Source: Liolophura sinensis
Lineage: Eukaryota; Mollusca; Polyplacophora; Chitonida; Chitonidae
Length of the DNA stretch: 64,000 nucleotides
Assembly (NCBI RefSeq): GCF_032854445.1
Contig: NC_088295.1
Coordinates: 91,753,805 to 91,817,804 of the forward strand
Direction of reading: 5' to 3'
Each line of letters starts with the position of its first letter. Position 1 is the stretch's first letter. A model generated the notes under the pieces. It did not search any database. It worked only from the letters and a program-made list of their open reading frames with translations, and was not told the DNA's origin. A program made the position numbers and the translations under genes. Shown here piece by piece: positions 10,001 to 64,000 of the stretch.

Positions 10001-13000
10001 TGTCATAATACATGTCTACATATAAGATGGGCAAGGTGTGTCTTGACAAGGAAGTTCTGTTAAAATGCTTCTGACGTACAGACAGTTGCACAGAGTTAAC
10101 GACGTACAGACAGTTGCACAGAGTTAACGACATATAGACAGTTGCACAACGTTAACACATAGTGTACTGCTGCATCACGTGTACTTTACATACTTACATA
10201 CATGTACTTGGCTCACTGCCATATTTACCTGGTTGGCTTGTGGGTTAGGTGAGGTAAATAAAATGTCTAATCTTACTGTTTCACACCTACATGTGCAGGT
10301 GGAACAAGACATAATGAAATAAACCAGCTCTAAAGCTAATAAAGTGACGGAGTGTAAAGTTACTCACTATCGGTTCATGTACAAGATTATAATGAAGCCA
10401 ATAGGCTCTGTTTGTGTAGTATTTTTATGTGTAATTTCAGGATTTCCTTGAAGTTCTTTCAATGGTGTACGTGTATAATGAGCTCATATACCTGTATAAT
10501 GAGCTGTATACATCACATACCTGTGTAATGAGCTCATATACCTGTATAATGGGCTGTATACATCACATACATGTATAATGAGCTGTATACATCACATACT
10601 CATGTAATGGGCTGTATACATCACATACCTGTATAATGGGCTGTATACATCACATGTGTATAGTGGGCTGTATACATCACATACGTGTATAATGGGCTGT
10701 ATACATCACATATGTGTATAATGATCTGTATACATCACATACGTGTATAATGAGCTGTATACATCACATACTCATGTAATGGGCTGTATACATCACATAC
10801 CTGTATAATGGGCTGTATACATCACATACCTGTATAGTGGGCTGTATACATCACATACCTGTATAATGGGCTGTATACATCACATACCTGTATAATGAGC
10901 AGTGTACATCACATACCTGTATAATGGGGGCCACATACCTGTATAGTGGGCTGTATACATCACATACCTGTATAGTGGGCTGTATACATCACATACCTGT
11001 ATAATGGGCTGTATACATCACATACCTGTATAATGGGCTGTATACATCACATACTTGTATAATGGGCTGTATACATAACATACTTGTATAATGGGCTGTA
11101 TACACATATCTGTATAATGGGCTGTATACATCACATACCTGTATAATGGGCTGTATACATCACATACCTGTATAGTGGGCTGTATACATCACATACCTGT
11201 ATAGTGGGCTGTATACATCACATACCTGTATAGTTGGTTGTATACATCACATACCTGTATAATGAGCTGTGTACATCACATACCTGTATAATGGGGGTCA
11301 CATACCTGTATAGTGGGCTGTATACATCACATACCTGTATAGTGGGCTGTATACATCACATACCTGTATAATGAGCTGTGTACATCGCATACCTGTATAA
11401 TGGGGGTCACATACCTGTATAGTGGGCTGTATACATCACATACCTGTATAATGAGCTGTGCACATCACATACCTGTACTGTTTAAGCTTCATGTCTACTG
11501 ATAAGGTCTGCTTATATGTACATGTAGTTTTCATATGTGTACTTCAAGCACTTGTGCATGTACATGTAAAATTATTCTGTGAATAGTCAGATGGTGATAT
11601 TGCACAAGTATATACATGTACAATCATATTTGTGAAGGATAGTCTTTATACTCACAAGCTTGCAGGGACATTTGGTTTTCTTGTAGTGCATATACACATG
11701 TACATAAAATGACTTGGTCTTTTCTGAGAAACAAGGAATACGACATACCTCTATATTGTTCAATGTTGTTATCAGCAACTGAAATGACTGAACTATGTGA
11801 TGGTCCTAATAGTCTATAATGAAACCTTGTTTAATAATTTTCATACTGCATTTATTAAGTAACAGTCTGTAAACATCGTCACCTATTTATTTTTCTCAGT
11901 CCTTCTCCCATGCCATTGACTGCAAATGTCGCTTTATGAAAATCATATTCATTCATTCATGCATCTGATGTGCACATAATTACCAGTTTACACTAATCCA
12001 AATTAATGTTATGTGCTAGATTTATTTGAGCACAATGTAAAAACATCAATGAAATTTTCAGAAAGCCGAACTGCTCATTTTATTTGTTCAAATTTATCCA
12101 CATCACAAGTATGTAATTTCACAAAACACATACATGTGATAGACGCATATGTACGTTTACCTCTGTTTCACTGATTGGCATTTCTTCCTGCATTACATTT
12201 ACATGTTGGAATTTTTTGTTTGAAATCTTGTCATTATATTTCCTTATTGACCACCCTCATTACATATCTTGTTACATGGCCTTATTGACCACCTTCATTA
12301 TATATCTTGTTACATTACCTTCAGAGACAGCTTCATGCCTACCTAGCCTGGGTCAATTCCCAGCTGAAGAAGAAGCCAGGCACGCGGCTTGTTGAAGATC
12401 TGCGACACGACATGAAGGATGGAGTGGCTCTGATTAACCTGGTGGAGATTGTAGGTGGGTGGTTTGTGACTTTAGTGAAGATGCAGCTTGTGATGATAGT
12501 GACAGGTTCAGCTTTTGATAGTGATAGGTGCAGCTTTTGAGGATAGTGATAGGTGCAGCTTGTAATGATAGTGATAAGCACAGCTTGTGATGATAGTGAT
12601 AGGTGCAGCTTGTGATGATAGTGTTAGGTGCAGCTTGTGATGATAGTGTTAGGTGCAACTTGTGATGATAGTGTTAGGTGCAGCTTGTGATGATAGTGAC
12701 AGGTTCAGCTTGTGGTGATAGGTGCAGCTTGTGATGATAGTGATATGTGCAGTTTGTGATGATAGTGATAGGTGCAGCTTGTGATGATAGTGACAGGTTC
12801 AGCTTGTGATGATAGTGTTAGGTGCAACTTGTGATGATAGTGTTAGGTGCAACTTGTGATGATAGTGATAGGTGCAGCTTGTGATGATAGTGACAGGTTC
12901 AGCTTGTGGTGATAGGTGCAGCTTGTAATGATAGTGATAAGCACAGCTTGTGATGATAGTGATAGGTGCAGCTTGTGATGATAGTGACAGGTTCAGCTTG

Positions 13001-16000
13001 TGATGATAGAGTTAGGTGCAACTTGTGATGATAGTGACAGGTTCAGCTTGTGGTGATAGGTGCAGCTTGTGATGATAGTGATAGGTGCGGCTTGTGATCA
13101 TAGTGACAGGTTCAACTTGTGATGACAGTGATATGTGCAGTTTGTGATGATAGTAATAGGGACATGTAGAGCTTGTGATGATTGTATTTCATAGGTCTTT
13201 TGATTATAATAATAGGTGCAGCTTTTTAGTGCTGATTGATAGTGTGTTGGCTTTACAGGTGGGGAGAAGCTATCTGGCGTCCATATGTGCCCGTCTAACC
13301 TGACTGAGATGAAGGATAATGTGGAGAAAGTGCTACAGTTCATGTCTCTCAACAGAATCAAGATGCATCACATTGTGGCTAAAGGTGAATTACAAAGCAG
13401 TCTGCTTACACGTGCAGTACTGTCTGTCAGATATAGTAGTAGGAAACTGAAGTAAATATTTCTTTTTTTGGAGATATGAATCCTAACAAAGAAGGTAAAT
13501 GATTGTACATGAGATTTCATCATTTGTGTTGTGTAATGATGGGTTGATGTATTAGTGGATTGATGAATATCCGCAATATTCATCAAGGAGAAAATCTGCA
13601 CTCATGGAAGAAGTCAGTATTGATTGTTTTCGTTCTGTTCCCATGTCATGTTTCCATCAGATGAGTTAGAATGAAAACTGAAATCTGTTATAAGGTTGTT
13701 TTTGAAACTTTTCCATGTTTTCTTATAGACATTGTGGAAGGCAACTTGAAATCTGTGATGAGACTGATTCTTGCTCTAGCAGCTCACTTCAAACCCAAAA
13801 GTGTACGACAGTCTGGTTTTGGAGTTCGCTCCCCTGGCAAGAGCCCAAACGTAGCTAGCATTGCTCAGGTAATTGTCAGTAGATTCTGATTTTCTCAAGT
13901 TTTCCATAGCTTCAACCACACTATTTTTCAATGTTTATTCATTGGTGTACATGTAGTTGTTGTTTGAAAAAAGTGATGAAGCCTTAATTCTTGTGTTGCA
14001 GGGTGCAGTGGCCGCTTTGGCAGATGCAAGGCGAGATGTAGCACGAGCAGGCTCAACCCGATATCGCAGACGAGCGGCAGACAAAGACAGACATGATAGA
14101 AGGTGTGTAGAGCCCTATTTTCCCTGTTTATTGTAGTTGTTTTCCATGGTTACGTTTATTAAACTAGAGTGACATTAGGCATCACCTCAATCTAGTAAAC
14201 TTTGCATCCAAAAAATATAGAGATCACTAAAAATTATAAAGGGATAAAAATGTTTACTTATATATTACTTATATAAGTAACTACAAAACAAGTCTACTAG
14301 TCCAATAATATGAAAATTTATGCAAAAATGTTGAATGTTATATACCTGGAATTATGTAAGTAGTTTTAGAAAGAAGAACCATACATGAAATATCCAGAGA
14401 TAATTTGAAATTTCTATCTTTGACATGACCTTCAAGGTCTCTTATATTATGCAGGTGTACAACAACATCAGCATAAGTTCGTGGTTACATTGAATATTGT
14501 GTGACATACATGCACGTGTAAGTAGTGTGCTTCAGCATTTAGCATGCCTGTCTGTTTACATGCACCTCTGTAGACTGTATCGGGAAAGTAGTTCTGACCA
14601 GTGCAGTGATTCAGACCAAAGTTTCTCAGCCTGCGAGCGGCTAAGGCCTGCCCCTACAGGAGGTGACCACCACAGGGACATAGAGGGAGTGAGTGTGGAC
14701 AGCGGATCGGGATCTCGGGGGAGTCCGGTGACCGGTGGAAGCCCCAGGAAAGACCAGCGAACTGGGGTAGTCAGCAAAAGTCGATCCTCAGACCATGTTC
14801 CGGGTAAACTCACTTGATTAAGTTACATCTGATTTCCTCCTCTGGTAAAGCCCACTGCATTCATGTGACTGCGATATTGGAAGAAGCAAAGCATAAAGCA
14901 GTAGAGTATGCCTCCTAATACGCCTTATTTTTGGTGTGAACCATTGGTGGTTCACTAGAGTTTTAAGCCTTTGCGTAAACACTGGTCACCATAACCCATA
15001 GTTCACATAAAAACTTTGCGCTGAAGATTCTCGTTTGTACATAGCAAACAAATCAGCAGTGAACTTTTAATATTGGGTAAGGTGTAGTTCAGAGCCAAGA
15101 CGACATGTCCATAGCAAAATGCCTATATTGTAACAGAGCCTTCCAGTGAATAGTCGGCAGAACAAAAATACTTGCCAAAACCTATATGTCATGGGCAAAA
15201 ATCGGGTGAAATACATTCGCTGTCCATGACAAAAGTTTTATCTCATTCCATGGCATGTATATATATGAGCGGTAATTCCAAGATACCTTGCTTTTGTGCC
15301 CTACTCACAATTGTCACAGCTACATTTAACATGTAAAGCCCTTGTTTTCCCACCCTGCGCATGCGGCCCTGTTAAACTCTTTGTGTGATAGCACATCAGC
15401 TGTCCATTTGTTGTCATTTTAAAAGAAACTGGTACTTAATATTTGTACTTCTGTTTATGTGTATGTTTGCAGCGAGCCACATCCCGGTTCCGGTGAGCCG
15501 CCGTGGGAAGGGGGAGAGTGTGGAGAGGGGCCAGTATGATGAGCTGATGAAGGAACATGAGGAGCTGGATAAACAGATGAGGGAGACGAAGAAACAGTTG
15601 ATGATGCTGCAGGACCTGGTAACACACTCATTCATACCTGTGTATACACAATGAAATATTCTTCATTTATTGTCCCTAACTAACAATAATAATAGTAATA
15701 TACCCTAGCACAGTTGATAAGTCAGATTCATTCCAAGAAGGAGGTGATTTTGTCATGTGGTTGTGATGTAAATGAGAAAAGAGGGCTGACTAAATATGAA
15801 TATCATCAGGAAAGGACTTGTAATACTGCCCAACCATTTCTTTTAACTTTATGAAATCAACCCAATACCAGATGATCATATGGAATGTTTTTACCATTGT
15901 CTATTATGTCTGAAGAGGTCTTGATTCTGCTATGTCATGTTGTTAGCAAGAGCCACAGTTCACGGTAACGGTTCATAATGATCGTTGTGTGCCAATACTA

Positions 16001-19000
16001 CATGGTACATGAACATGTGGGCATAGTGAAAGCTGAAACGTCACAAACCCTCTGCTACATAGGAAGATTTCCTGGTACTGGAGTATCATATTGCAGCTGT
16101 TGAGTGTAGGATATATGTTTTCACCTCATGGTATCATGTAATTGTGGTGCACCGTGTTACAGCTGTTGAGTGTAGGATGTACAGTTTTCACCTGTTTGTA
16201 TCATGTAATTATGTTACAGCTGTTTAGTGTAGGATATACAGTCTTCACCTCTTTGTATCATGTAATTGTGGCCTAACATGTTACAGCTGTGGAGTGCAGG
16301 ACATACATTCTTCACCTCTTTGTATCATGTAATTGTGGCATATCATGTTACAGCTGTTGAGTGTAGGATATACAGTCTTCACCTCTTTGTATCATGTAAT
16401 TGTGGCATATCATGTTACAGCTGTTGAGTGTAGGATATACAGTCTTCAACTGTTTGTATCATGTAATTGTGGTGCATCATGTTACAGCTGTTGAGTGTAG
16501 GATATACAGTCTTCTTCTCCTGGTATCATGTATGAAGAGTTCCTGCTGTTTTGTGTTGCAGCTGTTACGTGGTCAGCTTCCAGATGGAGAAGAAAGCCCT
16601 ACAAAGCTTCCCACAGAAGGATCTCCAAGCTCGGAACAAGTGGTGAGTTCTGCTCTACAGTTTCCCAGTGTTGTGAGAGTGCAGCAGATAATTATACATG
16701 ATGGCTGCACATACATTTATGATAGTACTCATAGCTGTTCAACTGGTTGAGAGATATCTCGCTGATGGATATTCGGGTCATGTCTATTTTGTTAACATAT
16801 GACTGTCACCTCCATATTTCAGTGCTCCACTCAGAATTGTATGGACCATTTTCACTAGCATTGTCATGGTTACCTGATGTTTTAGCACCTGTCTGTCTGA
16901 CAGGAGCTCTGCAGTGGGCTATGTCGGTGTTGTGATGGACAAATCAATACCTGTTCTCCCTGCCTGCTTGTATTGTCATGCTTACCTGATGTTATAGCAC
17001 CTGTGTTTGTCTGACAGGAGCTCTCCAGTGGTCTGTGTCACTGGTGTGATGGACAAATCAATACCTGTTCTCCCTGCCTACTTGTATTGTCATGCTTACC
17101 TGATGTTATAGCATCTGTGTTTGTCTGACAGGAGCTTTCCAGTGGTCTATGTCACTGGTGTGATGGACAAATCAATACCTGTTCTCCCTGCCTACTTGTA
17201 TTGTCATGCTTACCTGATGTTATAGCATCTGTGTTTGTCTGACAGGAGCTTTCCACTGGTCTATGTCACTGGTGTGATGGACAAATCAATACCTGTTCTC
17301 CCTGCCTACTTGTATTGTCATGGTTACCTGATGTTATAGCATCTGTGTTTGTCTGACAGGAGCTCTCCACTGGTCTATGTCACTGGTGTGATGGACAAAT
17401 CAATACCTGTTCTCCCTGTCTACTTGTATTGTCATGCTTACCTGATGTTATGGCACCTGTGTTTGTCTGACAGGAGCTCTCCAGTGGTCTATGTCACTGG
17501 TGTGATGGACAAATCAATACCTGTTCTCCCTGCCTACTTGTATTGTCATGGTTACCTGATGTTATGGCACCTGTGTTTGTCTGACAGGAGCTTTCCAGTG
17601 GTCTATGTCACTGGTGTGATGGACAAATCAATACCTGTTCTCCCTGCCTACTTGTATTGTCATGCTTACCTGACGTTATGGCACCTGTGTTTGTCTGACA
17701 GGAGCTCTCCAGTGGTCGGTGTCACTGGTGTGATGGACAAATCAATACCTGTTCTCCCTGCCTACCTGTATTGTCATGGTTACCTGATGTTATAGCATCT
17801 GTGTTTGTCTGACAGGAGCTTTCCAGTGGTCTATGTCACTGGTGTGATGGACAAATCAATACCTGTTCTCCCTGTCTACTTGTATTGTCATGCTTAATTG
17901 ATGTTATGGCACCTGTGTTTGTCTGACAGGAGCTCTCCAGTGGTCTATGTCACTGGTGTGATGGACAAATCAATACCTGTTCTCCCTGCCTACTTGTATT
18001 GTCATGGTTACCTGATGTTATAGCATCTGTGTTTGTCTGACAGGAGCTTTCCAGTGGTCTATGTCACTGGTGTGATGGACAAATCAATACCTGTTCTCCC
18101 TGCCTACTTGTATTGTCATGCTTACCTGATGTTATGGCACCTGTGTTTGTCTGACAGGAGCTCTCCAGTGGTCGGTGTCACTGGTGTGATGGACAAATCA
18201 ATACCTGTTCTCCCTGCCTACTTGTATTGTCATGGTTACCTGATGTTATAGCATCTGTGTTTGTCTGACAGGAGCTTTCCAGTGGTCTAAGTCACTGGTG
18301 TGATAGACAAATCAATACCTGTTCTCCCTGCCTACTTGTATTGTCATGCTTACCTGATGTTATGGCACCTGTGTTTGTCTGACAGGAGCTCTCCACTGGT
18401 CTATGTCACTGGTGTGATGGACAAATCAATACCTGTTCTCCCTGCCTACTTGTATTGTCATGCTTACCTGATGTTATGGCACCTGTGTTTGTCTGACAGG
18501 AGCTCTCCAGTGGTCTATGTCACTGGTGTGATGGACAAATCATTACATGGTCTCCCTGCCTACTTGTATTGTCATGCTTATTTGATGTTATGGCATCTGT
18601 GTTTGTCTGACAGGAGCTCTCCAGTGGTCTATGTCACTGTTGTGATGGACAAATCATTACATGGTCTCCCTGCCTACTTGTATTGTCATGCTTACCTGAT
18701 GTTATGGCATCTGTGTTTGTCTGACAGGAGCTCTCCAGTGGTCTATGTCACTGGTGTGATGGACAAATCATTACATGGTCTCCCTGCCTACTTGTATTGT
18801 CATGGTTACCTGATGTTATGGCACCTGTCTTTGTCTGACAGGTGCTCCACAGAATCATTACCTGTTGTCCCTGGCTATTTGTATTGTCATGCTTACCTGA
18901 TGTTATAGCACCTGTGTTTGTCTGACAGGAGCTTCACAGTGGTCTATGTCAGTGTTGTGCTAGACAAATCAATACCTGTTCTCCCTGCCTGCTTGTATTG

Positions 19001-22000
19001 TCATGCTTGCCTGATGTTATAGCCTGTGTGTTTGTCTGACAGGAGCTCCACAGTAATCTATGTCAGTGTTGTGCTAGATAAATCAATACCTGGTCTTCCT
19101 GCCTGCTTGTATTGTCAGACTTACCTGTTGTTATAGCACCTGTATTTGTCTGATGGGCACTCCACAATGGACTATGTCAGTGGTGATAAATCAATACCTG
19201 GTCTTCCTGCTTGCTGGTATTGTCATGCTTATCTGATTTTATAGCACCTGTATTTGTCTGACGGGCACTCCACAATGGACTATGTCAGTGGTTTGCAGGA
19301 CAAATCAATACTTGGTCTCCCTGCTTACTGGTATTGTCATGCTTATCTGATGTTATAGCACCTGTGTTTGTCTGATAGAAGCTCCACAGAGTCATTCTCT
19401 GGTCTCCTTGCCTACTTGTATTGCTATACTTACCTGACATTTTTACACCTATGTTTGTGACAGGTGATACTGAAAAGTCAGCTACAGCAGTCTACCTTGT
19501 TCTGTGAAGACATCAAAGAGGAGTTGTCCAAGAGTAAGAATGAGTGCCTCCGTTTACAGGGAGTCAAGGTACGTCTAATCCCTTTGCTCTCTTCTGCAGT
19601 CACATCCTAGGCTAACAGAGCTAGAAATTTTTTTTTAAAACTGCCTTTGGCATAGGCAGGTAGACTTTTTTGTACTTGTCACCTATAGGTATCTACCTGT
19701 ACCCATCAGTCTGACTTTCAGAAAGTCTATTCTGTGCTAGCACTACCGATCGCCATTGTCGGATTTTGCGAACATAATTTAAGTTTGGCGAAATTATTTT
19801 CTGTCAACATCATCACCTTGGCAGAGCAATAACAGTCTACAGTGTTAAACGAATATTTGGTTTTAGTAGCACTTTCCTTTTTATTTAATGTTCTGTCTGG
19901 AGCGGGACTTCTGCACAGTCAATCATCAAATTGAAACTTACTTGTGGGAGTTAAGTCTGTACTTGGGTACGCATGGGCTTCCCATTCAAGGAGAACAACA
20001 GAGGAAAAGCATCTGGTCTGTGTGTTTGGATTTATATGTGCGTGTCTTTTGATATCCTTTACACCTGTGGCGACACGCGTAGTCCTTAAGCAGGAAAAAG
20101 TTAGCAATGCAGTCCTAAAGATGTACATTTTTGGGGGGATAGGAACAGACCGGGACTATAAATATTAACTTCACGTTTTATTATTTATTTATTTGAGTGG
20201 TGTTTCACGCTGTACTTAAGATTTCATTTATATAACAGTGGGAGACTCCTGATCCATGCATGACACTTCAAATTTGGATTGATTCACTGCTCTGTGTTGA
20301 CTGTCATCTAGCTCAGATTGACCGCCACTTGTTGACGCTGTTCATTCCATCATAACTGCATGTGGAGCTCTTAAAATGACTTCTTGCAGATCTAATTTTG
20401 CCATTGCTATGACAACCGAAGATCGTTCTTCAAGATTGAATCTATTTTTGGTCTCGCAGTTGAAAGCGCCAATATGATAGGTTCGTTGACGATGGCCTTG
20501 TCCACTAAATGACGTCCCAGCAGTGCTGATATGTTGGGCCAAAAATGACGAATGTCTTGCAACAACATTTTGATTATGAGAACGCCAAGTAAATATACAG
20601 ACCTTACATACAAACATGCATGGATGATGACTTAAACATGATTGTAAACTTATTGGGCCTACCTGTCGCTGCGACAGGTGAATTTTTTTGTTACCTTTCA
20701 TCTGACAGTTAGTCAGATGTTATCTTGACCACTGGCCCGATATCTGTTATGTTTGTCGATGCTCTCTTCCCCTCCTGCCAAACATTTATAATATTAAATG
20801 TGCTGGTAGGTAAACTACTTGAGTACTTGCTCTGAATTTAAGCTTCTGAAAATTTCTGGGAAACATGTAGTTGTCCTTTATTCTGACTTTCAGTGAGATG
20901 TTTAACTCTACCCGTTTTGTTTTGTTTGTGAGCCATATGTTTAATGTTTGTCAGATGAATAACATATGTTGCTCCAGGTATGCATGTATATCTAATTCAG
21001 ATGTTGTGATCATAGCCCTGTTTAATTTTGACTTGATGCTTTCAGGCTGGATTACAACAGAGACTGACAGAACAGGAGAAAGTTCTTCTCCAAATGAAAG
21101 CAGAGCTGTTGAGGAAGGGATTTGATCTGCAGAATGTGGAATCGGAAAGGGTTTGTAAACAATGAAGGAAGGATTGGGGCAATATAACGCCACACAGGCA
21201 ATAGTTCAATCATATTATGTGCATAACGCCACACAGGCAATAGTTCAACCATATTATGTGCATAACGCCATATTGGCAATACCCATATCACAGTGAGAAC
21301 ATGGGACATTTGTAACATTGCTATTCAGTCAAATTCCTAAACATAGGTTCTTTCTTCACATTTTTTAACAGAAATGTTGTCTTACTGTTTTTAATGAACA
21401 GTATAACTTATGACCAATATTTTGTAATAATTTGTACGAACACGTATATAGGTCTGTGTGTTCATCATTACAGGATGAGATGCAGAAGCTATTACATGAT
21501 AAGGACAAGATTATTGCAGATCTAAAGGTGAGTAGGCATACCTATCAAGGGAGAGGTGTGTGCAGCTAATCAGGAGAGATAGAGCCTCTGATAATGTTTT
21601 TGTATTCTGACTTTCAAACAGGCCACAGGAAGGGGTCAAACAGATCAGTGGAAAATATGTGGTGTTTTCTAGTTGAGTTAGCACTGGTATGGAAGTTATT
21701 CTCTTGAAAGAGACTACTGCGACAGCCTAGCCTTCATCAGGCAGATGTGCAGGGGCCAATGGCCATCGTATTTCCTGAGTTGTCTGACTACCTTTTTTTT
21801 ATCCATTTAGTTTGTCAAAACTTGGCTAGTATTGTCAGTTTAATTACCTCTCAATCCAAACTCCCATCTGCGTCTCACAGTTGGAAATGTTAGAAGAGAC
21901 ACGGAACTTACAGTGCCGGCATAAAGGGTTTGGTATACTCTCCATGTTTTTGTTTCAGACAAGCTTATCAACAAAGGACCACAGAGTAGATAAGTTACAG

Positions 22001-38420: not shown

Positions 38421-38555
38421 GCTCGACGTTTTGTAAAAAATTACGTTGAATATTTCTTGCTATAAAGCGGCTGTGTACGAAGCATAATTACAAGGTTCTA
38501 TAACACATCCCACGTCTTGGTCATCAGGCGTTTCTTTTGGCCTTTATCTCATAAT

Positions 38556-47376: not shown

Positions 47377-50300
47377 TAGATAGATAGATATACAGTGGCA
47401 AATTAAATCAACACAAAGTACTTAAACAGTGAAATAATAATGAAAGCAAGCGTGAATTTTGCCACCATAACTATGCCAACCAATGGAAGAGATAGGTAAG
47501 TGGGAGACGGCCCATTACCTACCCCTTTCTATCCCTCCAGAAGTTCATGATACACATGCTGAAAGTATAGAACAAGTGAGTGGGTGATGGCCCTTTCCCA
47601 TCCCCTTCTCTTCTGCACATGAGCTCATGTGTACTATGATGGCATTCTCAAAATAAAGTATCATTTTCAGTATATAATCCCTTCAAGATATTGGTTCTAA
47701 AAACACTGAACTGAGTAAGAACACTGAATTTCTTTACTCAAAGGTTTCAGTTCTTGGGAAAGGCGTTTTTAGTTTAACAGCAGTAGTAGATCTTAAATTC
47801 ACAGCAGAGTTTAATTCAGTTGAGAATAGAGCTGAACCATATGCTGGGAAACAGTCATTAAGGGATTTGTATACATTGATAACCTTGCAGTAGTCTACGA
47901 GTTGACAAATAGTAAGGCATTTTAACTTTTGGAAAAGAACTGTTTTTAGGGGTGTGTTTGTCCACATAAGTATTAATGTCTGTCAGCTTCCTGATGGAAG
48001 CATGGTTAGCCCATGGCGTTTGTTTTGTTCATTCCCAAAAACCTGAAAGCTGTATGGAAAAGTACATTAAGTATATATTATTTGGGACATTGTTGTGAAG
48101 GAGCAGTTTAAATAAGATCCAGAACATATATGTGTAGTAGTCTATGCTTTATGTAAGTGTTGTTGACTTAAAGTTGCTGCAGATTAGAATTGAGACCTAC
48201 ATTTATTTTTTATATATCAGTGAAATCCCACCATTTCCTTCATTGATAAAAATGATATCTTCACAAGTTAGATATCACTTTTGTTATTAAATTTTGCTAT
48301 TACACTGCTGAAGACCAGCGCAATATATAGTTTGCCAAAATAAGAGGTAGAAATTCTTTGTGCTTTTAATTTATGGAAATACCTATATTGCATTAGCATT
48401 AAGCACTTTGTAGAATGTATAATTACTTACAGACAGTGTTTAAAACTGTACAAAGGTTTTTTGAGCAAGAGCATGAAAGAAATTGCAGAGCGTATGAATA
48501 GAATCAGAAATATGACGAAGATGGCACATTGCTTATTTTTTTCACGGATGCAACAGATAAACTGATATGCATGTATATACATGTAGAGAAAATGTTGGTA
48601 TAAATAATAGATGGAATGTTGCACTGTGAAGGTTGAATACCATAAATATTGTTCTCTTGAAAGGTATTTTCAGGTATTTATATTTATGGTATTCAACCTT
48701 CAGTGTGCAATACCCTCTATGTATCATCCTTGTGGAACGGTTTGAAATCAGGAGAAAATGTATTAAGGATCAATCAGTAACACACAGTATGTCATTGCTT
48801 CTTTTCTATGATCGTTTCAGGTAAGAGATGTCAGAACAACAGATGACATCATCATTACTGTGAAACTGATGATATTTTATGGACTTCAGGATGTCATCAC
48901 CATGGTAAGAATTGGTTTTTGTGGAAGTATGGTCACATTTTATTATAACTGAAAATCATCGTCATTAAAGTGGAATAGATTTCCCAGCATGCATTCATTA
49001 CAGAATGAAGAAAAAATTGCGCTGTTGTACATTGATTTTAATATTTATAGTTTACTGAAATGAAATGTTTTGTGTGGAAGGCCTATGTTATAGTGTTCAT
49101 TATGTAAACATGTTTACAAGGGACATCTTTTATGGAGTACTGCGTGACCACTTTTATTTACTTTGCTATTTCAGTTAGACACAACACATGATCCAGTCGC
49201 TGACATGATCAAGTAAGTGTGCAAAGGATCAAGTAAGTGTGCAAATGATCAAGTAAGTGTGCAAATGAAAACACATGCAGTTCCTCATTGATGGTAATTG
49301 TGATAGGGATGAAATTGATTCTAATACTGACATGTCTTATGAATGAATCAATACGTCTATTATTTCTTGAGTTAAATTTCCTTACTTTTGTCAGTACATA
49401 GTTTGCAGTTGTAGTGTATATAAACTGTGAAGTACAACTATGGTCTCCAGTAAAAAGAGAATGAAGGTGTTTAAAGTCAGTACATGTACATGTATACCTT
49501 TGCTCTTCAGTGCTGTTTGTGCTGATGTCATCGCCTATGTGGGCAGGCGCACGTAAGTAACAACAGTATTCTGTTTAGACACACATTTTTGCATGAATTA
49601 TTTCACCCTTTTGGACATGTCGAAAGTATGTTGAGTTTGATTTACTTTAAATTTACAGGGAGAATACTGTTTATAGATGACTTGTAAGGGTATTAAGCTT
49701 CATGTTAAGCAAGTCAAGGCTGGATTTGACTTTACTCAAATTATATGGAGTTTACACCAGTGCAGTAAGTTATCTTATGAGATAAATCCAAGATGTAAGA
49801 TGATCAGGTAACAATGTCCATGACAGGTACGCCCAGTTCCTGGAGCAGACGGATGAGCTGAGTAGACTGACCACCTTTCCTCAGCTAGTACAGCGGACTG
49901 AGCGTGTGGGGTTTAGTGTTCATAAGGTGGTCTATAGGGGCTACCATGCCACAGAGCAGCTCCAGGTAAAGCTTTTCTCAACTGTAGTATAGAGGACTGA
50001 TCATTTAGGGTTGAGTGTTCATAAGGTGGTCTATAGGGGCTACCATGCCACAGAGCAGCTCCAGGTAAAGCTTTCCTCAACTGTAGTATAGAGGACTGAT
50101 CATTTAGGGTTTAGTGTTCATAAGGTGGTCTATAGGGGCTACCATGCCACAGAGCAGCTCCAGGTAAAGCTTTTCTCAACTGTAGTATAGAGGACTGATC
50201 ATTTAGGGTTTAGTGTTCATAAGGTGGTCTATAGGGGCTACCATGCCACAGAGCAGCTCCAGGTAAAGCTTTCCTCAACTGTAGTATAGAGGACTGATCA

Positions 50301-53300
50301 TTTAGGGTTTAGTGTTCATAAGGTGGTCTATAGGGGCTACCATGCCACAGAGCAGCTCCAGGTAAAGCTTTCCTCAACTGTAGTATAGAGGACTGATCAT
50401 TTAGGGTTTAGTGTTCATAAGGTGGTCTATAGGGGCTACCATGCCACAGAGCAGCTCCAGGTAAAGCTTTTCTCAACTGTAGTATAGAGGACTGATCATT
50501 TAGGGTTTAGTGTTCATAAGGTGGTCTATAGGGGCTACCATGCCACAGAGCAGCTCCAGGTAAAGCGTTCCTCAACTGTAGTATAGAGGACTGATCATTT
50601 AGGGTTTAGTGTTCATAAGGTGGTCTGTACGTGTTACCATGCCACAGAGCAGCTCCAGGTAAAGCTTTTCTCAACTGTAGTATAGAGGACTGATCATTTA
50701 GGGTTTAGTGTTCATAAGGTGGTTTATAGGGGCTACCATGCCACAGAGCAGCTCCAGGTAAAGCTTTCCTCAACTGTAGTATAGAGGACTGATCATTTAG
50801 GGTTGAGTGTTCATAAGGTGGTCTGTACGTGCTACCATGCCACAGAGCAACTCCAGGTAAAGCTTTCCTCAACTGTAGTATAGAGGACTGATCATTTAGG
50901 GTTTAGTGTTCATAAGGTGGTCTATACGTGCTACCATGCCATAGGTATTGCTATATCCGATCCTGAAGTTAGGATAGCTGCTTCTGGATTGTTTGCTTGC
51001 CCCTGTCAAGACAGGGCTCAATATTATACAAGACAGGACTGTTTGATTGTTATCAGTGTAGATAATTCATACACAGCTTATTTACGTTTGAATGTTAGAG
51101 GTGTACATGATTCATACACAGCCTATTTACCGTTGAATGCTAGAAGTGTACATGATTCATACACAGCCTATTTACCGTTGAATGCTAGAAGTGTACATGA
51201 TTCATACACAGCCTATTTACCATTGAATGCTAGAAGTGTACATGATTCATACACAGCCTATTTACGTTTGAATGTTAGAAGCGTACATGATTCATACACA
51301 GCCTATTTACCGTTGAATGCTAGAAGTGTACATGATTCATACACAGCCTATTTACCGTTGAATGCTAGAAGTGTACATGATTCATACACAGCCTATTTAC
51401 CGTTGAATGCTAGAAGTGTACATGATTCATACACAGCCTATTTACCGTTGAATGCTAGAAGTGTACATGATTCATACACAGCCTATTTACCTTTGAATGC
51501 TAGAAGTGTACATGATTCATACACAGCCTCTTTACTTTTGAATGCTAGAGGTGTACATGATTCATACACAGTCTATTTACCGTTGAATGCTAGAAGTGTA
51601 CATGATTCATACACAGCCTATTTACCTTTGAATGCTAGAGGTGTACATGATTCATACACAGCCTATTTACCATTGAATGCTAGAAGTGTACATGATTCAT
51701 ACACAGCCTATTTACCGTCGAGTGCTAGAAGTGTACATGATTCATACACAGCCTATTTACCTTTGAATGCTAGAAGTGTACATGATTCATACACAGCCTA
51801 TTTACCGTCGAGTGCTAGAAGTGTATGTGATTCATACACAGCCTATTTACCTTTGAATGCTAGAAGTGTACATGATTCATACACAGTCTATTTACCGTTG
51901 AATGCTAGAAGTGTACATGATTCATACACAGCCTATTTACCTTTGAATGCTAGAGGTGTACATGATTCATACACAGCCTATTTACCATTGAATGCTAGAA
52001 GTGTACATGATTCATACACAGCCTATTTACGTTTGAATGTTAGAAGCGTACATGATTCATACACAGCCTATTTACCGTTGAATGCTAGAAGTGTACATGA
52101 TTCATACACATCCTATTTATGCTTGATTGTTATGAATACTTGGCTGGTTATAACCTTTGATTGTACATGTATATAAGACATAATTGTTTGATTGTTACAC
52201 AAAACAAGACTGTTTAATTGTTTTTCAGGTCTTAACTGTTTGAATTTAACACAAAACATAACTTTTTGATTGTTACAGATGACAGGACTTTTTGGTTTTT
52301 ACAAATAACAGGACTGTTAGGTTGTTACAGGTGTTAGGGCTGTTTGGTTGTTACACATGACACTACTGCTTGGTTGTAGTTTGAGACATTGCTGTTTGAC
52401 TGTTTAACCAGGCAATGCAGACAGAGGCCATAGAAGCCAGAACTCGCCTTAGATTGGACGCAGAGATTGAAGGACAAAGACAGCAGTTGGTGGACTACAA
52501 ACTGGAGAAGGAGCAAGCTCGCACAAAACTACGTGGGTTTTACTGGTTCCATTTTTTTTGTTTTTTTCTCATCCTCAGTTTCTGTGGTGAAAATTTGCAC
52601 CACCTTTGAAACTGACAATCCTCGTGCTGTTCCCTCTGTGATATTAATTGTCTAAATACTGGTCTGTAACACAAACAAATTTGTATCAATAAACTGATTG
52701 ACTGTATTGTGTCAGATTAAGCTGCACCCAGTCTCTGCATATCATTTGTGTTCGTGTATTCTTACATGTAGGTCAGAGCATGGAGGAGAGCAAGCAGAAC
52801 CACAAGCAGAAGGTTGATGGGCTGAAGCAAGCCCATGAGCTGGGTATGAAACAGGAGGAGCACAAGTATCAGTTAGAAATTGAGGACAAATGGGTTAGAG
52901 CACGACTGGGTAAGTTAAACGGTAGGACATGAACACTACTCACCTCCAGGCTGGGGGAATTTTACATTAGTCCAGTAGTAGAATTGTAGATGGGAAATCC
53001 AGAGATTGCTGGTTCAAATCGACAGCTGGTGGAATTTTATTTATTTATTGATTTGATAAGATTTCTGAAGAATTTTCCCCAGCTCGTATTAGCCTGTTCA
53101 GACATGGCCCTGTGATCAGATTTAGTAGCTTGCGTAGCACACTCTGGTGTATTGGTGGACTTGCGAGTGATGGAAAGTCACAATGATGTGTATGAGACTT
53201 TATCCTGCAATGGACAACATCGGTCGCGTGGGGGTATGTGTGTATTCTTGCATCAAGCAGCCAACATCATGTCTTCTGAGTAGGTTATCTCCCTTGGTTT

Positions 53301-55534: not shown

Positions 55535-55630
55535 CCTGTTTCCTCCCATGGTAATGCTGGCTACCATCATATAAGTGAAATATTCTGGAGTATTTCGTAA
55601 AACATCAATGAAATAAAATGACCCAATAAA
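55535..55630 (+). mobile_element. diverged SINE tail
   Basis: TTTCCTCCCATGGTAATGCT, CATATAAGTGAAATATTCTG and CGTAAAACATCAATGAAATA match the common SINE tail. It is 5'-truncated and no target-site duplication was found. Confidence 0.82.
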
Positions 55631-56278: not shown

Positions 56279-56284
56279 TTTATT
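56279..56284 (-). terminator. IFT46: candidate IFT46 polyadenylation signal
   Basis: TTTATT on the + strand is AATAAA on the minus strand, about 690 nt downstream of the IFT46 stop codon. Other A/T-rich candidates exist nearer 55.9 kb, so this is tentative. Confidence 0.3.
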
Positions 56285-56974: not shown

Positions 56975-59900
56975 TTACATCATAAGCGAGTCCGGGATAT
57001 CAGAATCTAAATTTGTTCTCTTTAGGGAATTGCTCAACTTGTTTTCTGCTGCCAAAGCACGGAAATGCTGAAATAAAACAAACATATAAGTTATAACAAA
57101 ATGTGATAACCAGCTCTTAACCAAAAAGTTTAAATGTGGATTTTTTATTTTTTCAGAGCATTTGAAAAGCTCTTATTTAAGAAGTGTCAGGTAGTCTACT
57201 TTAATGACATAATCACAACTTACCTGTGAGTTTTTAAACTCTGAGTACAAGGTAAATAACACATGGAGGGCCTGGATTTTCTCATTGTGCTGAGCTGTGG
57301 CCTTATGAATGGGGATGTCAAGGATGGCTGTAATAGACACAAAAACATAACCAGTAAGTGTTATGACAAACAGACTGAGTCTATATAAATGTCTCTTTAT
57401 GTAAACTTTTGATAACTTTTGATGACTTGAGCATGAGGCTGAAGTATATTATATTCTATTGTTATAAAGATGATATGCAGAATTGTACCCTTCCATAATA
57501 AGTGAGGTCAGAGTCTCAGTGTATTTGACCCCCTCCCCCACCCATTCACCCATCTGACAAAGACAAACACAGACAACATCTAGTTAGTTACTCTATTTCA
57601 ATATGTTTCTGGTAACATACATTATTAAACTCTTATCAGTTCTGAGAGTTGACTACAGCAGTGTGATACTGAAAACAGTCTAACAGATCTATTCCGAAAC
57701 ATCTCCCACACCTTCATCACACAGTCTGTAAAGATACCCATTCACACTCATATTACAAAGAAAAAGGCCATGCTACAAAGGAAGTTTGGTCTTACCACAA
57801 ATCATATCAACATACTGTCCCAAGTCACAGTCCAAGTCTGCTGTTGGGAGACCCACCTGTAATTGATAAAATACCATGAATTACAGATTCAAACTGGATA
57901 CTGGTTGATTATCAAGCAGGTGGAAATCCGTGGATTTCTGAGGTGAAGGATATCTGGGGAATCTTCAGCAGGAGGCACTTGTGGATAACAGAACAAGAGA
58001 GAATCAGTGAAATGTGGAATCTGTGGGATTCAGTGGATTACTGAAGGATGGATACTAGTGGATTACAGAATAGGTGACAATCACTGGCATACTGAATGGG
58101 TGGGAATCAGGAGAAGGGGAAAACAGGTAGATTACTGACAGGGCGGGATTCAGGAGAAGGGGAAACGGGTAGATTAATGAATGGGTGGGAGTCAAGACAA
58201 GGGGAAAACAGACTACTGAGTGGGTGGGATTCAGGAGAAGGTGGGGAAAGAAGTAGATTACTAAATCGGTGGGAATCAGGACAAAGGGGAAAACAGGTAG
58301 ATTACTGAATGGGTGGGAATCAGGACAAGAGAAGAAACAGGTAGATTACTGAGTAGGTGGGAATCAGGGCAAGGGAGGGAACAGGCAGATTACTGAGTAG
58401 GTGGGAATCAGGACAAGGGAGGAAACAGGTGGATTACTGAGTAGGTGGGAATCAGGACAAAGGGGAAAACAGGTAGATTACTGAATGGGTGGGAATCATG
58501 ACAAGGGGGAAAACAGGTAGATTACTGAGTGGGTGGGAATCATGACAAGGTGGAGAACAGGTAGATTACTGAATGGGTGGGAATCAGGACAAGGGAGGAA
58601 ACAGGTAGATTACTGAATGGGTGGGAATCATGACAAGGTGGAGAACAGGTACATTACTGAGTGGGTGGAAATCACAACAAGGAAGAAAACAGGTAGATTA
58701 CTGAGTAGGTGGGAATCAGGACAAGGGAGGGAACAGGCAGATTACTGAGTAGGTGGGAATCAGGACAAGGGAGGAAACAGGTGGATTACTGAGTAGGTGG
58801 GAATCAGGACAAAGGGGAAAACAGGTAGATTACTGAATGGGTGGGAATCAGGACAAGGGGGAAAACAGGTACATTACTGAGTGGGTGGGAATCATGACAA
58901 GGTGGAGAACAGGTAGATTACTGACCGGGTGGGAATCAGGACAAGGGAGGAAACAGGTATATTACTGAATGGGTGGGAATCATGACAAGGTGGAGAACAG
59001 GTACATTACTGAGTGGGTGGAAATCACAACAAGGAAGAAAACAGGTAGATTACTGAATGGGTGGGAATCATGACAAGGTGGAAAACAGGTAGATTACTGA
59101 ATGGGTGGGAATCACAACAAGGAAGAAAACATGTAGATTACTGAATGGGTGGGAATCATGACAAGGTGGAGAACAGGTACATTACTGAGTGGGTGGAAAT
59201 CACAACAAGGAAGAAAACAGGTAGATTACTGAATCATGACAAAGTGGAAAACAGGTAGATTACTGAATGGGTGGGAATCACAACAAGGAAGAAAACAGGT
59301 AGATTACTGAATGGGTGGGAATCAGGACAAGGGGGAAAACAGGTAGATTACTGAATGGGTGGGAATCACAACAAGGAAGAAAACAGGTAGATTACTGAAT
59401 GGGTAGAAATCATGACAAAGTGGAGAACAGGTACATTACTGAGTGGGTGGGAATCACAACAAGGAAGAAAACAGGTAGATTACTGAATCATGACAAAGTG
59501 GAAAACAGGTAGATTACTGAATGGGTGGAAATCACAACAAGGAAGAAAACAGGTAGATTACTGAATGGGTGGGAATCAGGACAAGGGGGAAAACAGGTAG
59601 ATTACTGAATGGGTGGGAATCACAACAAGGAAGAAAACAGGTAGATTACTGAATGGGTAGAAATCATGACAAAGTGGAGAACAGGTACATTACTGAGTGG
59701 GTGGGAATCACAACAAGGACGAAAACAGGTAGATTACTGAATGGGTGTGAATCATGACAAAGTGGAGAACAGGTACATTACTGAGTGGGTGGGAATCACA
59801 ACAAGGACGAAAACAGGTAGATTACTGAATGGGTGGGAATCATGACAAAGTGGAGAACAGGTAGATTACTGAGTGGGTGGGAATCACAACAAGGAAGAAA

Positions 59901-62900
59901 ACAGGTAGATTACTGAATGGGTGGGAATCAGGACAAGGAAGAAAACAGGCAGATTACTGAGTGGGTGGGAATCAGGACAAGGGGGAGAACAGGTAGATCA
60001 CTGACCGGGTGGAAATCATGACAAGGTGGAGAACAGGTAGATCACTGACCGGGTGGGAATCAGGGGGAAACTGGTAGATTACTGAATGGGTGGGCGGCCT
60101 AGTATGTGTTAATGATCCTAATTAACTGCTCAGCGCAAACAAAATCTCATAAACCCATGTAGGATTCATTTATTCAAGACAAAAGACAGGCCCATTCTGC
60201 TTTGGCCAAGTCATCTCACACACACATGTAGTTCCCTTCACTACTTACTTCTTTTAGCAACTCTTCAAACTCTGGAGGCCATTCTTGCATCAGATTATCG
60301 ATGTCTGGCATGTTTCTGAAAAATTCAAGATTACATCTTGGCTTAAAATGATCATCACATTTAATTCCTATATGCCTAAACTACACTTCAGCAAACTGGA
60401 CAATCGAGAAGCACTAGAGTACTGGTCAGCTACTGTTCATAAGAAAACAAATTATTATATAAATTATTATACAATTTATTTTATATTCATATGAAACTCA
60501 TCAACTTGGAACATTCTAAAAATTCCCACTTTAAAATACGGCTAACTTAGCAATAAAGATAATACCTCTGCTGCATCAGCAACTGTGGGGACATAACCCC
60601 TGGATGAAACCTAAGCCCACAAAGTATTTAACTGCTCTGGAATCTTACTTGGAATAGTGCACATTAGGAGGTGGTTTAGAGCGATGCAGTTCCCGTATGT
60701 TTTCAATCCAATTCTCAATAGCTTTTGGCTGCTTTTCTGCATCTTCCAAGCTTTTGACAACCTGTAACAGACATTGATTTGGCTTTCACTATCACATATA
60801 GTGGCCTCCGTGGCTCAGTTGGTTAGCGTGCTAGCACAGCGTAATGAGCCAGGAGTCTCTCACCAATCCAGTCGCTGTGAGTTCAAGTCCAGCTCATGCT
60901 GGCTTCCTCTCCGGCCGTACGTGGGAAGGTCTGTCAGCAACCTGTGGATGGTCGTGGGTTTCCCCCGGGCTGTGCCCGGTTTCCACCCACTATAATGCTG
61001 GCCGCCGTCATATAAGTGAAATATTCTTGAGTACGGCGTAAAACACCAATCAAATAAATAAATAAATAAACTCTATCACAAATATCAAACAATAAGTATT
61101 GCTCGGCAACACACAATTCATTATCAAAGGCCTATATTTGTTCTTGAAGTAAATTAATACAATCAATACAGAGAGAGAGAGAAACTTGGTCTACTCTACC
61201 TAGTACTCTAATAAGAAGGTATACCTGTGCAAGGATAGCATGAGAGCATCGCATTATGTACAAATTAAAAGCCTGTCAAGAATTATGTTGCTAGTCATTA
61301 AAAGCTTACCAGCTGTTTACTGGTTGTCTGTTTGGACATAGCCCTCAGCTGTAGGTCCAGTACTGTGGGGTCAGACTGCTTGGCGCAGGGTTCATCAAGC
61401 ACCGTCAGCCCCAGAGAGTCGGGTTTGCCATCAGGACGTGGAATCTGAAGGGAGACAACTTGTGTGTTACTGTACAACATAGCTGAACCATGCTGAGTGG
61501 ACAACACAGGCACATAATGAGTAAATAAACCGTATTTGTGCTACAGAATTACGCTCATAACTTTATTTATTAATATTTACAAGTTAACTATTCTCCACAC
61601 AAAAAAACCCTCCAGAATTTAAGACTTCTGTGTGCAACCATCACCTGATGCAGGAGATCCTATTCATGAAGCAGTTATTTCACTGAATATTAATACCTAC
61701 ATATAATACCTACATCCTCCTCTGCGTAATAACAAACAATGCAACACTTCACAATTACAACAGTAAAATCATCAGAAACACTGATACAATATGACACAAT
61801 ACAATACAATAGTGTTCTCAAAAAGAGTCTCTCACCAATGCAGTTGCCGTGAGTTCAAGTCCAGCTCATGCTGGCTTCCTCTCCGGCCGTACGTGGGAAG
61901 GTCTGTCAGCAACCTGCGGATGGTCATGGGTTTCCCCCAGGCTGTGCCCGGTTTCCACCCACCATAATGCTGGTCGCCGTCGTATAAGTGAAATATTCTT
62001 GAGAATGGCGTAAAACACCAACCAAATAAATAAATCAAAAAGATCAGGGCAAAATTTTGGCTTATATATAAGTATCAATATCCCCTACTACAAGGTAAAG
62101 CTCTGAACTTATTGAAAGCACCAATATCTCTTAATGAAGGGATAAAATTCTGGACATACCTTGATGAAAGCATCAATATCTCTTAATGAAGGGATAAGTT
62201 CTGGACATACCTTGATGAAAGCATCAATATCTCTTAATGAAGGGATAAGTGCTGGACATACCTTGATGAAAGCATCAATATCTCTTAATGAAGGGATAAG
62301 TGCTGGACATACCTTGATGAAAGCATCAATATCTCTTAATGAAGGGATAAGTGCTGGACATACCTTGATGAAAGCATCAATATCTCTTAATGAAGGGATA
62401 AAGTTCTGAACATACCTTGATGAAAGCATCAATATCTCTTCATGAAGGGATAAAGTTCTGGACATACCTTGATGAAAGCATCAATATCTCTTCAAGAAGG
62501 GATAAAGTTCTGGACATACCTTGATGAAAGCATCAATATCTCTTCAAGAAGGGATAAAGTTCTGGACATACCTTGATGAAAGCATCAATATCTCTTAATG
62601 AAGGGATAAGTGCTGGACATACCTTGATGAAAGCATCAATATCTCTTAATGAAGGGATAAAGTTCTGGACATACCTTAATGAAAGCATCAATATCTCTTA
62701 ATGAAGGGATAAGTTCTGGACATACCTTGATGAAAGCATCAATATCTCTTCATGAAGGGATAAGTTCTGGACATACCTTGATGAAAGCATCAATATCTCT
62801 TCAAGAAGGGATAAAGTTCTGGACATACCTTGATGAAAGCATCAATATCTCTTCATGAAGGGATAAAGTTCTGGACATACCTTGATGAAAGCATCAATAT

Positions 62901-64000
62901 CTCTTCAAGAAGGGATAAAGTTCTGGACATACCTTGATGAAAGCATCAATATCTCTTAATGAAGGGATAAGTTCTGGACATACCTTGATGAAAGCATCAA
63001 TATCTCTTCATGAAGGGATAAAGTTCTGGACATACCTTGATGAAAGCATCAATATCTCTTCAAGAAGGGATAAAGTTCTGGACATACCTTGATGAAAGCA
63101 TCAATATCTCTTCATGAAGGGATAAAGTTCTGGACATACCTTGATGAAAGCATCAATATCTCTTCATGAAGGGATAAAGTTCTGGACATACCTTGATGAA
63201 AGCATCAATATCTCTTAATGAAGGGATAAAGTTCTGGACATACCTTGATGAAAGCATCAATATCTCTTCATGAAGGGATAAAGTTCTGGACATACCTTGA
63301 TGAAAGCATCAATATCTCTTCATGAAGGGATAAAGTTCTGGACATACCTTGATGAAAGCATCAATATCTCTTCAAGAAGGGATAAAGTTCTGGACATACC
63401 TTGATGAAAGCATCAATATCTCTTCATGAAGGGATAAAGTTCTGGACATACCTTGATGAAAGCATCAATATCTCTTCAAGAAGGGATAAAGTTCTGGACA
63501 TACCTTGATGAAAGCATCAATATCTCTTCATGAAGGGATAAAGTTCTGGACATACCTTGATGAAAGCATCAATATCTCTTAATGAAGGGATAAGTGCTGG
63601 ACATACCTTGATGAAAGCATCAATATCTCTTAATGAAGGGATAAAGTTCTGGACATACCTTGATGAAAGCATCAATATCTCTTAATGAAGGGATAAAGTT
63701 CTGAACATACCTTGATGAAAGCATCAATATCTCTTCATGAAGGGATAAAGTTCTGGACATACCTTGATGAAAGCATCAATATCTCTTCAAGAAGGGATAA
63801 AGTTCTGGACATACCTTGATGAAAGCATCAATATCTCTTAATGAAGGGATAAGTTCTGGACATACCTTGATGAAAGCATCAATATCTCTTCATGAAGGGA
63901 TAAAGTTCTGGACATACCTTGATGAAAGCATCAATATCTCTTAATGAAGGGATAAGTTCTGGACATACCTTGATGAAAGCATCAATATCTCTTCATGAAG
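56975..64000 (-). CDS. IFT46: Intraflagellar transport protein 46, 3' part (six exons, partial)
   Basis: IFT46 is a core subunit of the IFT-B complex that carries cargo, notably outer dynein arms, along cilia. Exons (+ coordinates, transcribed right to left): 61310-61444, 60649-60761, 60249-60315, 57796-57856, 57224-57327, 56975-57067 with TAA at 56975. Phases agree, giving 190 residues; I recall human IFT46 as about 304. Conserved blocks, N to C: PRPDGKPDSLGLTVLDEPCA with KQSDPTVL, VKSLEDAEKQPKAIENWIE, ELHRSKPPPNVHYS, NMPDIDNLMQEWPPEFEELL, VGLPTADLDCDLGQYVDMIC and LHVLFTLYSEFKNSQHF. The join before 61444 continues a coding stretch ending IPSLRDIDAFIK, seen as the array unit at 62110-64000. 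The true preceding exon and the N-terminus lie beyond the window. The last 20 residues differ from human. Confidence 0.95.
57880..60100. repeat. 44-bp intronic minisatellite, about 45 copies
   Basis: GGTAGATTACTGAATGGGTG with GGAATCACAACAAGGAAGAAAACA-type spacers repeats with a period near 44 bp over about 2 kb of an IFT46 intron. Several ordered variant classes (GGACAAGG, CATGACAAGG, CACAACAAGG) recur as blocks. Older, diverged copies are at 57880-58100. I see no exon sequence in the unit. Confidence 0.95.
60801..61070 (+). mobile_element. full-length tRNA-derived SINE
   Basis: The A box TGGCTCAGTTGG is at 60811-60822 and the B box GAGTTCAAGTCC at 60879-60890. The body GTGGGAAGGTCTGTCAGCAA and CGTGGGTTTCCCCCGGGCTG follows, then ATTCTTGAGTACGGCGTAAA and CAAATAAATAAATAAATAAA. 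CTATCACA occurs at 60789-60796 and 61073-61080 as a probable target-site duplication. This is the reference copy for the other fragments in the window. It is inserted in an IFT46 intron. Confidence 0.93.
61827..62034 (+). mobile_element. 5'-truncated SINE with target-site duplication
   Basis: The element starts within the tRNA-like head and keeps the B box (GAGTTCAAGTCC) and the entire body and tail. It is nearly identical to the copy at 60801-61070, indicating recent activity. TCAAAAAGA flanks it at 61818-61826 and 62035-62043. Confidence 0.93.
62105..64000 (-). repeat. IFT46: 51-52-bp array of an IFT46 donor, at least 37 copies
   Basis: On the minus strand each unit reads ATCCCTTCATTAAGAGATAT, TGATGCTTTCATCAAG, then the donor GTATGTCCAGAAC. 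It contains the last 36 nt of an IFT46 exon (IPSLRDIDAFIK) plus a strong 5' splice site. I count 37 copies before the window ends. Sixteen keep the open TTA AGA form. Thirteen carry TCA TGA and eight carry TCT TGA, which introduce a stop in the IFT46 frame. The real exon should be to the right of the window. Small indels give periods of 51 or 52 bp. Confidence 0.93.

Follow-up and report, generated by a model that had tools for sequence, protein, structure and literature searches.

The stretch of DNA analysed here, hereafter the window, comprises 64,000 bp of contig NC_088295.1 (positions 91,753,805 to 91,817,804 of the forward strand; assembly GCF_032854445.1) of the chiton Liolophura sinensis, and our subject is the minisatellites within it whose repeat unit includes the boundary between an exon and an intron. 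The species was first published as Liolophura japonica, a correction having renamed it L. sinensis (PMC12441733), and the genome paper describes a HiFi-based assembly of 609.5 Mb in 632 scaffolds (PMC11068029). Tandem arrays with a unit of at least 10 bp, as detected by Tandem Repeats Finder (TRF), occupy 21,649 of the 64,000 bp (34%) and merge into 31 arrays. Among them lie three genes, whose exons were delimited by frame-consistent GT-AG pairs, with the help of Pfam and PDB matches in two of the three. Gene A, on the plus strand, encodes a CH domain (Pfam CH, E 4.4e-16) and has neuron navigator 2 as its best PDB match; it may be DIXDC1-like. Gene B, also on the plus strand, is a series of frame-consistent exons from 45103 to approximately 53.7 kb, for which a Pfam search gave no match over the cut-off and a PDB search no match up to E 0.1. 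Gene C, on the minus strand, is IFT46, as identified by its Pfam and PDB matches (Table 1), and its upstream exons lie beyond position 64000, outside the window.

Splice junctions inside tandem arrays

Each of 43 hand-delimited junctions in the window was represented by a 40-mer (20 exon and 20 intron bases), recurrence of which was sought within 2.5 kb on the intron side, and 430 mismatched junction-intron pairs served as controls. Four of the 43 junctions, namely gene B acceptor 45103, gene B donors 46244 and 49965 and IFT46 donor 65108, recur on the intron side at scores of 38-40 out of 40, against a control maximum of 20 (n = 430), and none of the 43 recurs on the exon side. Acceptor 45103 is itself the last copy of the 40-bp array that precedes it, and a longer string across this junction recurs within the array at 44183. 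A fifth junction array follows donor 49212, where the unit is too short for the 40-mer test (score 16) and where the array beats 500 shuffles (42 versus 21). In the sixth, at acceptor 19464, a degenerate last copy reaches AG/G, scoring 75 against a shuffled maximum of 30, and takes in only one exon base. Three other candidates were rejected as junction arrays, since the arrays beside donor 12454, acceptor 16562 and acceptor 52412 scored 16, 23 and 20 against shuffled maxima of 27, 25 and 24, respectively.

Five arrays in the window, or reaching out of it, thus hold a real exon boundary together with 8-91 bases of exon sequence, four in gene B and one in IFT46; by type they comprise four donors and one acceptor, to which one further acceptor at the edge of an array can be added. 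An earlier note on this DNA had claimed at least six boundary-containing arrays in three unrelated genes. That real splice junctions lie within arrays in three unrelated genes is borne out by the 40-mer test, TRF and the shuffles, and the count of six is also reached, albeit with a sixth array that holds a single exon base and with three near-exon arrays that fail against their shuffles. Some units consist mostly of exon, such as that of the 47-bp array with its 42 exon bases, and 91 bases of exon 49827-49965 are included in its array. The intronic copies drift; when the coding copy is aligned to the consensus of the 99-bp unit, the consensus is seen to depart from the exon chiefly in its first third, and the first insert of this array (49875..50941) has stops in all three frames. 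In the IFT46 array (62113-65153), the motif TCCAGA occurs in the exon at the start of the unit and again just after the donor, a possible founding microhomology; the pair is compatible with slippage or with microhomology-mediated duplication.

Table 1. Arrays and exons of the window (a slash marks the splice site; x, number of copies; %, identity between copies)
Feature	Position	Strand	Description
25-bp array	12473..13160	+	18 bp past CH-domain exon donor 12454; without demonstrable junction homology; 40-mer score 10
67-bp array	16084..16532	+	29 bp before acceptor 16562; TTACAGCTGTT look-alike; not above shuffles
Gene A (CH-domain) acceptor array	16860..19463	+	114-bp unit; TRF end 19389, degenerate copy on to acceptor 19464 (TTTGTGACAG/GTG); single exon base in array
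Gene B acceptor array	43632..45126	+	40-bp unit x 37.3, 85%; TRF, 40-mer score 40/40; unit of intron end (TTTATTTTCAG) plus first 24 exon bases; TTTCAGG motif kept in 28 further copies
Gene B exon PCEMFHNPLEH...EEW	45103..45270	+	Open frame, GT-AG, phase with next exon; exact first base probable
Gene B exon, end TACTATAAT/GTAAGT	46133..46244	+	Frame and GT-AG
Gene B donor array	46203..46795	+	47-bp unit x 12.6, 88%; 42 exon bases; 8 further identical donors
Gene B exon, end GATCAA/GTAAGT	49175..49212	+	Frame and GT-AG
Gene B donor array	49205..49268	+	20-bp unit x 3.2, 95%; 8 exon bases; 2 further identical donors
Gene B exon, end CTCCAG/GTAAAG	49827..49965	+	Frame and GT-AG
Gene B donor array	49875..50941	+	99-bp unit x 10.8, 96%; 91 exon bases; 9 further identical donors
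26-bp array	52185..52377	+	Before acceptor 52412; junction homology not above shuffles
IFT46 exon (ILDIPIHKATAQHNEKIQALHVLFTLYSEFKNSQ)	57224..57327	-	Pfam/PDB matches, frame
IFT46 exon (NMPDIDNLMQEWPPEFEELLKE)	60249..60315	-	Pfam/PDB matches, frame
IFT46 exon (VVKSLEDAEKQPKAIENWIENIRELHRSKPPPNVHYSK)	60649..60761	-	Pfam PF12317, E 1.6e-29; PDB 4uzz/8bd7
IFT46 donor array	62113..64000, on to 65153 past the window	-	52-bp unit x 58.8, 96%; 46 exon bases; 54 further donors identical to the real one, AAGGTATGT
IFT46 coding exon at array	65108-65201, outside the window	-	Donor 65108

Junction arrays in myosin and kinesin genes and their decoy sites

An independent sample was drawn from two gene families of the same genome and comprised 29 pieces (279,691 bp), 17 of myosin genes and 12 of kinesin genes. 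For myosin, the rule was fixed before any sequence was retrieved: Pfam myosin-head loci qualified if 10 kb held two or more matches, the match-richest stretch being taken, and one of the 17 pieces measured 9 kb. The kinesin pieces, added for power, were selected by match count among loci having four or five matches (the seven with five, the four ranking next by E-value and, outside that ranking, one more with four), and six of them were trimmed to the matches plus approximately 2.6 kb on each side. As the densest loci were taken, the sample favours compact genes. Exon cores came from profile searches, and their edges from splice-site scoring combined with phase and profile continuity, the splice-site weights being general metazoan values; tblastn among the cores gave 59 candidate exons, of which 53 were kept and six were dropped as array copies of exons in pieces L014 and L017. 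In this way 340 junctions were called at 173 exons, and 291 well-called junctions were retained, the 49 poorly called ones being set aside.

At a score threshold of 22, chosen after the first run to lie just above its highest mismatched control (21), 11 of the 291 junctions recur on the intron side (3.8%, 95% interval 1.9-6.7%), against 0/291 on the opposite side and 0/2,910 among mismatched controls, whose maximum was 18. Moving the threshold from 16 to 30 changes the count from 13 to 7 of 291, with a single recurrence on the other side at 16 and none at 18 or above. Since 11 of 291 junctions in an independent sample stand against none of the controls, the phenomenon is not confined to the window. 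These seven donors and four acceptors are spread over 10 of the 29 pieces, with 9/176 in myosin and 2/115 in kinesin; one of the junctions set aside, an acceptor in L026, is also at threshold. Two further junction arrays, outside the 11, were recognised through the arrays themselves by the myosin-like frames that adjoin them, one in L008 (82 bp x 12.7) and one in L015 (22 bp x 3.9), the latter also by tblastn. A different kind of repetition is present in L007 (696-1887), where three tandem versions of one myosin exon (profile positions of approximately 118-152) lie some 500-600 bp apart; these are presumably alternative exons of a muscle myosin and not minisatellite copies.

Decoy splice sites were tabulated for 19 arrays, six from the window, 11 from the sample and the two found through arrays. 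In 17 of the 19, one or more sites come within 1 bit of the real site, and in 16 one or more motifs are identical to it; the number of comparable decoys ranges from 0 to 54 per array, and many, though not all, copies keep their AG/GT signals. In IFT46 the 54 identical donors recur in the 52-bp period, the L012 acceptor has 39 identical motifs, and there is no comparable site left in L027 and L013. The suggestion of the earlier note that such arrays are a source of decoy sites is therefore upheld, as most of those tabulated hold decoys as strong as the real site. At the minus-strand donor 3783 of L010, the unit consensus is CAG/GTCAGT and the real site CAG/GTGAGT, which one other copy of 18 matches; at the minus-strand donor 8042 of L027, the unit consensus has lost its GT. 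These weakened or lost decoys could reflect selection against decoys or a founder effect.

Of 63 arrays away from called junctions, donor-like scores are higher in the sense than in the antisense direction (Wilcoxon P 0.013), and this set has no such excess for acceptor-like scores (P 0.41). Two of the five arrays with the strongest donor-like motifs, those of L008 and L015, lie beside myosin-like exons not called before, which explains part of the sense excess; arrays with donor-like motifs are also present in L027 (two) and L028. Because dozens of equal-scoring sites can adjoin the real one, our observations suggest that automatic gene models need care near exon edges in this genome.

Arrays cover 44,702 of the 279,691 bp sampled (16%). 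The repeat table of the genome paper gives 0.08% for simple repeats, microsatellites and RNA combined (PMC11068029), compared with our 34% for the window and 16% for the sample; either the table omits the minisatellite load, or its unclassified repeats conceal it.

Further features were observed in the assembly and in the window that concern neither the junctions nor their arrays. Elsewhere in the genome, a haemocyanin gene with eight molluscan beta-sandwich units has 8/8 matches in one 11.4-kb cluster, in keeping with a mollusc and not with amphioxus. The mitochondrial COX1 occurs seven times on one contig (C99), at steps of approximately 15.5 kb and with one match partial, and once on another (C632); the series on C99 either reflects a mitochondrial concatemer assembled head to tail or is an array of nuclear copies. 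On the minus strand of the window, at 36800-38032, lie broken open frames that appear to resemble a transposase of the pogo/Tigger-type DDE class. A dispersed repeat with similar translated strings is found in both orientations near 4021-4275, 38488-38833, 55485-55604, 60863-61072 and 61785-62084, and is perhaps an element resembling short interspersed elements.

Origin of the junction arrays

We consider it highly probable that the arrays are minisatellites of the kind known as 'mirages' in amphioxus, whose founders fall nearly anywhere outside coding interiors and in some cases span a junction. Intronic minisatellites abound in this genome, and the tandem duplication that founds one could occur almost anywhere outside coding interiors. 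Where such a founder spans an exon-intron boundary, the unit would join an exon's end to an intron's beginning, or an intron's end to an exon's beginning, and ordinary tandem-repeat turnover would then multiply the whole unit, splice site included. We propose that splicing goes on using the copy adjacent to the exon body, which would leave all other copies intronic and free to drift, and that founders within exons are removed by selection, as the depletion of repeats in exon interiors suggests. The rate at which a position belongs to the first copy of an array is approximately 0.7% in exon interiors (16/1712 and 7/1703), compared with an intronic rate of 2.36% (12,450 positions; 218/10022 and 255/10059, with one side matched and the other not). 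This low rate fits selection against duplications into the exon, such as the earlier note had supposed. Its observation that copies always lie on the intron side stands, in both the window and the sample. However, one-sided arrays are to be expected, because the outermost copy, if it is still the one spliced, leaves all others intronic whichever of them is 'new'. One-sidedness follows from the spliced copy together with selection, and is not independent evidence for a directional process.

The alternative is that junctions are themselves the targets, with AG/GT microhomology, or breaks linked to transcription or splicing, making them hotspots of duplication, and that arrays start there by preference, as put forward in the earlier note; we regard this as unlikely, although by no means far-fetched. 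Given that a junction can sit only in the exon-adjacent copy of an array, the fair comparison is with the first copy, and a comparison of junctions with all intronic positions (8/97 versus 170/1019) was dropped as unfair, since non-terminal copies inflate the intronic rate. Measured against the intronic first-copy rate, junctions show a 1.6-fold excess (binomial P 0.086; bootstrap over pieces 0.84-2.56), and a test stratified by piece expects 8.3 where 11 were found (P 0.20); a smaller first version had given 10/190, or 2.1-fold (binomial P 0.023, stratified P 0.11). Nor does the first-copy rate rise steadily towards exons, the values from near to far being 0.029, 0.028, 0.022, 0.017 and 0.031. 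In the first sample the kinesin genes have no excess (2/93 versus 3.2 expected), acceptor-like scores lack a sense excess, and most arrays touch no called junction.

Other results favour targeting and so weigh against founders that fall without regard to junctions. A placement test took in both well and poorly called exons, 173 in all, with their edges. Of 75 strong arrays, 12 touch such an edge, where 5.5 are expected if the unit is placed at random (P 0.006) and 6.5 if the whole array is (P 0.023); across the six settings of strength and tolerance the excess stays between 1.9- and 2.3-fold and P never exceeds 0.023, with P ≤0.018 in the five besides this one. The myosin subset of the first sample gives 8 against 3.3 expected (P 0.016), and the sense excess of donor-like scores, with the L008 and L015 arrays adjoining uncalled exons, points in the same direction. 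Our reading of these arrays as mirages is also weakened in that the TRF array of L013, one of the 11, ends 15 bp short of its junction and that the entire sample represents two gene families of one genome. The mutational mechanism, the use of the exon-proximal site as the spliced copy and near-neutrality are all three deduced from sequence. Taken together, an excess of up to approximately two-fold at junctions is likely but not firm, and there may be a real seeding bias of about that size. The earlier note had called for a genome-wide count of such enrichment; run instead as a sample of two families, the count neither refutes preferential seeding nor strongly upholds it, and any preference is modest at best.

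The extra splice sites might instead be kept because they aid or regulate splicing, for example through alternative exon ends, which we think very unlikely. Intact decoys do occur in most tabulated arrays, 54 of them in IFT46 and 36-39 for the acceptor of L012, and the first inner donor of IFT46, if used, would lengthen the open frame by 17 codons and keep it in phase, a stop following only past the next donor. Nevertheless, in the 17 arrays with a decoy to assess, splicing at the nearest one would put 12 out of frame and bring in stops in all frames in three more, and a frame-neutral open insert is found only in IFT46 and one L010 array. Furthermore, that L027 and L013 retain no comparable decoy, and that one L010 array retains a single matching copy, is expected if the copies are unneeded or harmful, and the high intactness seen elsewhere is equally expected from the homogenisation of young arrays. 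It is more improbable still that the arrays are artefacts of assembly or annotation, in which repeats had been collapsed or wrongly lengthened, or exon edges confused with array copies. Long, near-identical arrays are indeed hard to assemble, and the exon edges were called from sequence alone. However, the assembly is based on HiFi reads (PMC11068029), and identities of 71-96% within the arrays make the copies distinguishable. In IFT46 and in the myosin and kinesin genes, moreover, the coding copies are part of conserved protein sequence, and many of the junctions pair in phase.

Known systems and the meaning of the chiton arrays

Arrays of the mirage kind, which we favour as the explanation, have been described before. 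In amphioxus, minisatellite-like duplications of intron-exon boundaries were reported as 'mirages' in the globin genes BflGb6 and BflGb9, with Adh3 cited as an earlier case (PMC3087553), and TnC (troponin C) and PGBD5 were added by a further study (PMC3902484). The first of these papers already draws an intron-gain model like that of the earlier note, and both link mirages to new introns, so the impression conveyed in that note that such dense splice-site arrays had gone undescribed does not hold. As in amphioxus, the tandem units of the chiton include an exon boundary, the coding copy being the terminal one, and arrays occur at both 5' and 3' splice sites with AG/GT in many copies. The chiton arrays differ in reaching 58.8 copies, compared with three to six units in BflGb6. 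They also differ in the kind of evidence, in that the chiton has a controlled rate over sampled junctions, whereas amphioxus has data from reverse-transcription PCR (RT-PCR) and on length polymorphism. Splicing in amphioxus is reported to be undisturbed, as suggested by the Adh3 data and by RT-PCR of the globins (PMC3087553; also PMC3902484).

Related repeats are known from other genomes. In human genes of segmental duplications, variable internal tandem repeats lie at exon-intron boundaries (PMC2812944); they share with the chiton arrays their minisatellite size, their position and an altered gene structure, but were found by copy-number variation between paralogs, average 30 bp x 4 and have novel introns backed by transcripts. 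Among molluscs, an intron of an abalone TSSK1-like gene holds a long minisatellite of 27-bp units, with differing copy numbers from one individual to another (PMC6905558), which resembles the chiton case as a long minisatellite in a mollusc intron, the accessible text making no mention of a junction in its unit. Accounts of Conus and of earthworm metallothionein minisatellites likewise do not mention junction-containing units in their accessible parts. Our literature search, which covered mostly papers open without subscription, recognised no mollusc case of junction minisatellites, and the papers it returned for chiton and minisatellite were all on Theileria.

The only effect on introns that we see in the chiton is the lengthening of existing ones. 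In this the arrays differ from the model of Rogers, in which tandem duplication of an AGGT-containing segment is said to create a new intron, although in both a stretch that carries splice signals is duplicated in tandem. For the potato RdRp gene, intron gain by tandem duplication of such a segment has been reported (PMC4974935). What is new here, as far as we have searched, is the phylum, the copy number relative to the globin example and the first estimate of a rate. Mirages, hitherto reported for a few amphioxus genes, are thereby extended to a mollusc, with controls to accompany the rate, and in this genome junction arrays are common, yet at most approximately twice as frequent at junctions as random placement would give.

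We tentatively suggest, with confidence that falls slightly on the doubtful side, that junction duplications persist at least as often as other intronic tandem duplications, that a few per cent of exon edges therefore lie beside two to more than 50 copies of equal strength, and that mirages are general to minisatellite-rich animal genomes. As part of the same suggestion, if the exon-proximal copy is used each time, choice in vivo would follow position next to the exon and not strength. In classic minigene work the intron-proximal of two equal donors was reportedly favoured, and exclusive use of the exon-proximal one would accordingly be noteworthy. If that copy is always used, the chiton arrays would constitute a genome-wide natural experiment on splice-site choice in which position prevails over strength. 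The arrays also provide numerous natural cases in which to observe how the spliceosome picks one of several identical, competing sites, and a quantifiable substrate from which exons could be extended and introns gained.

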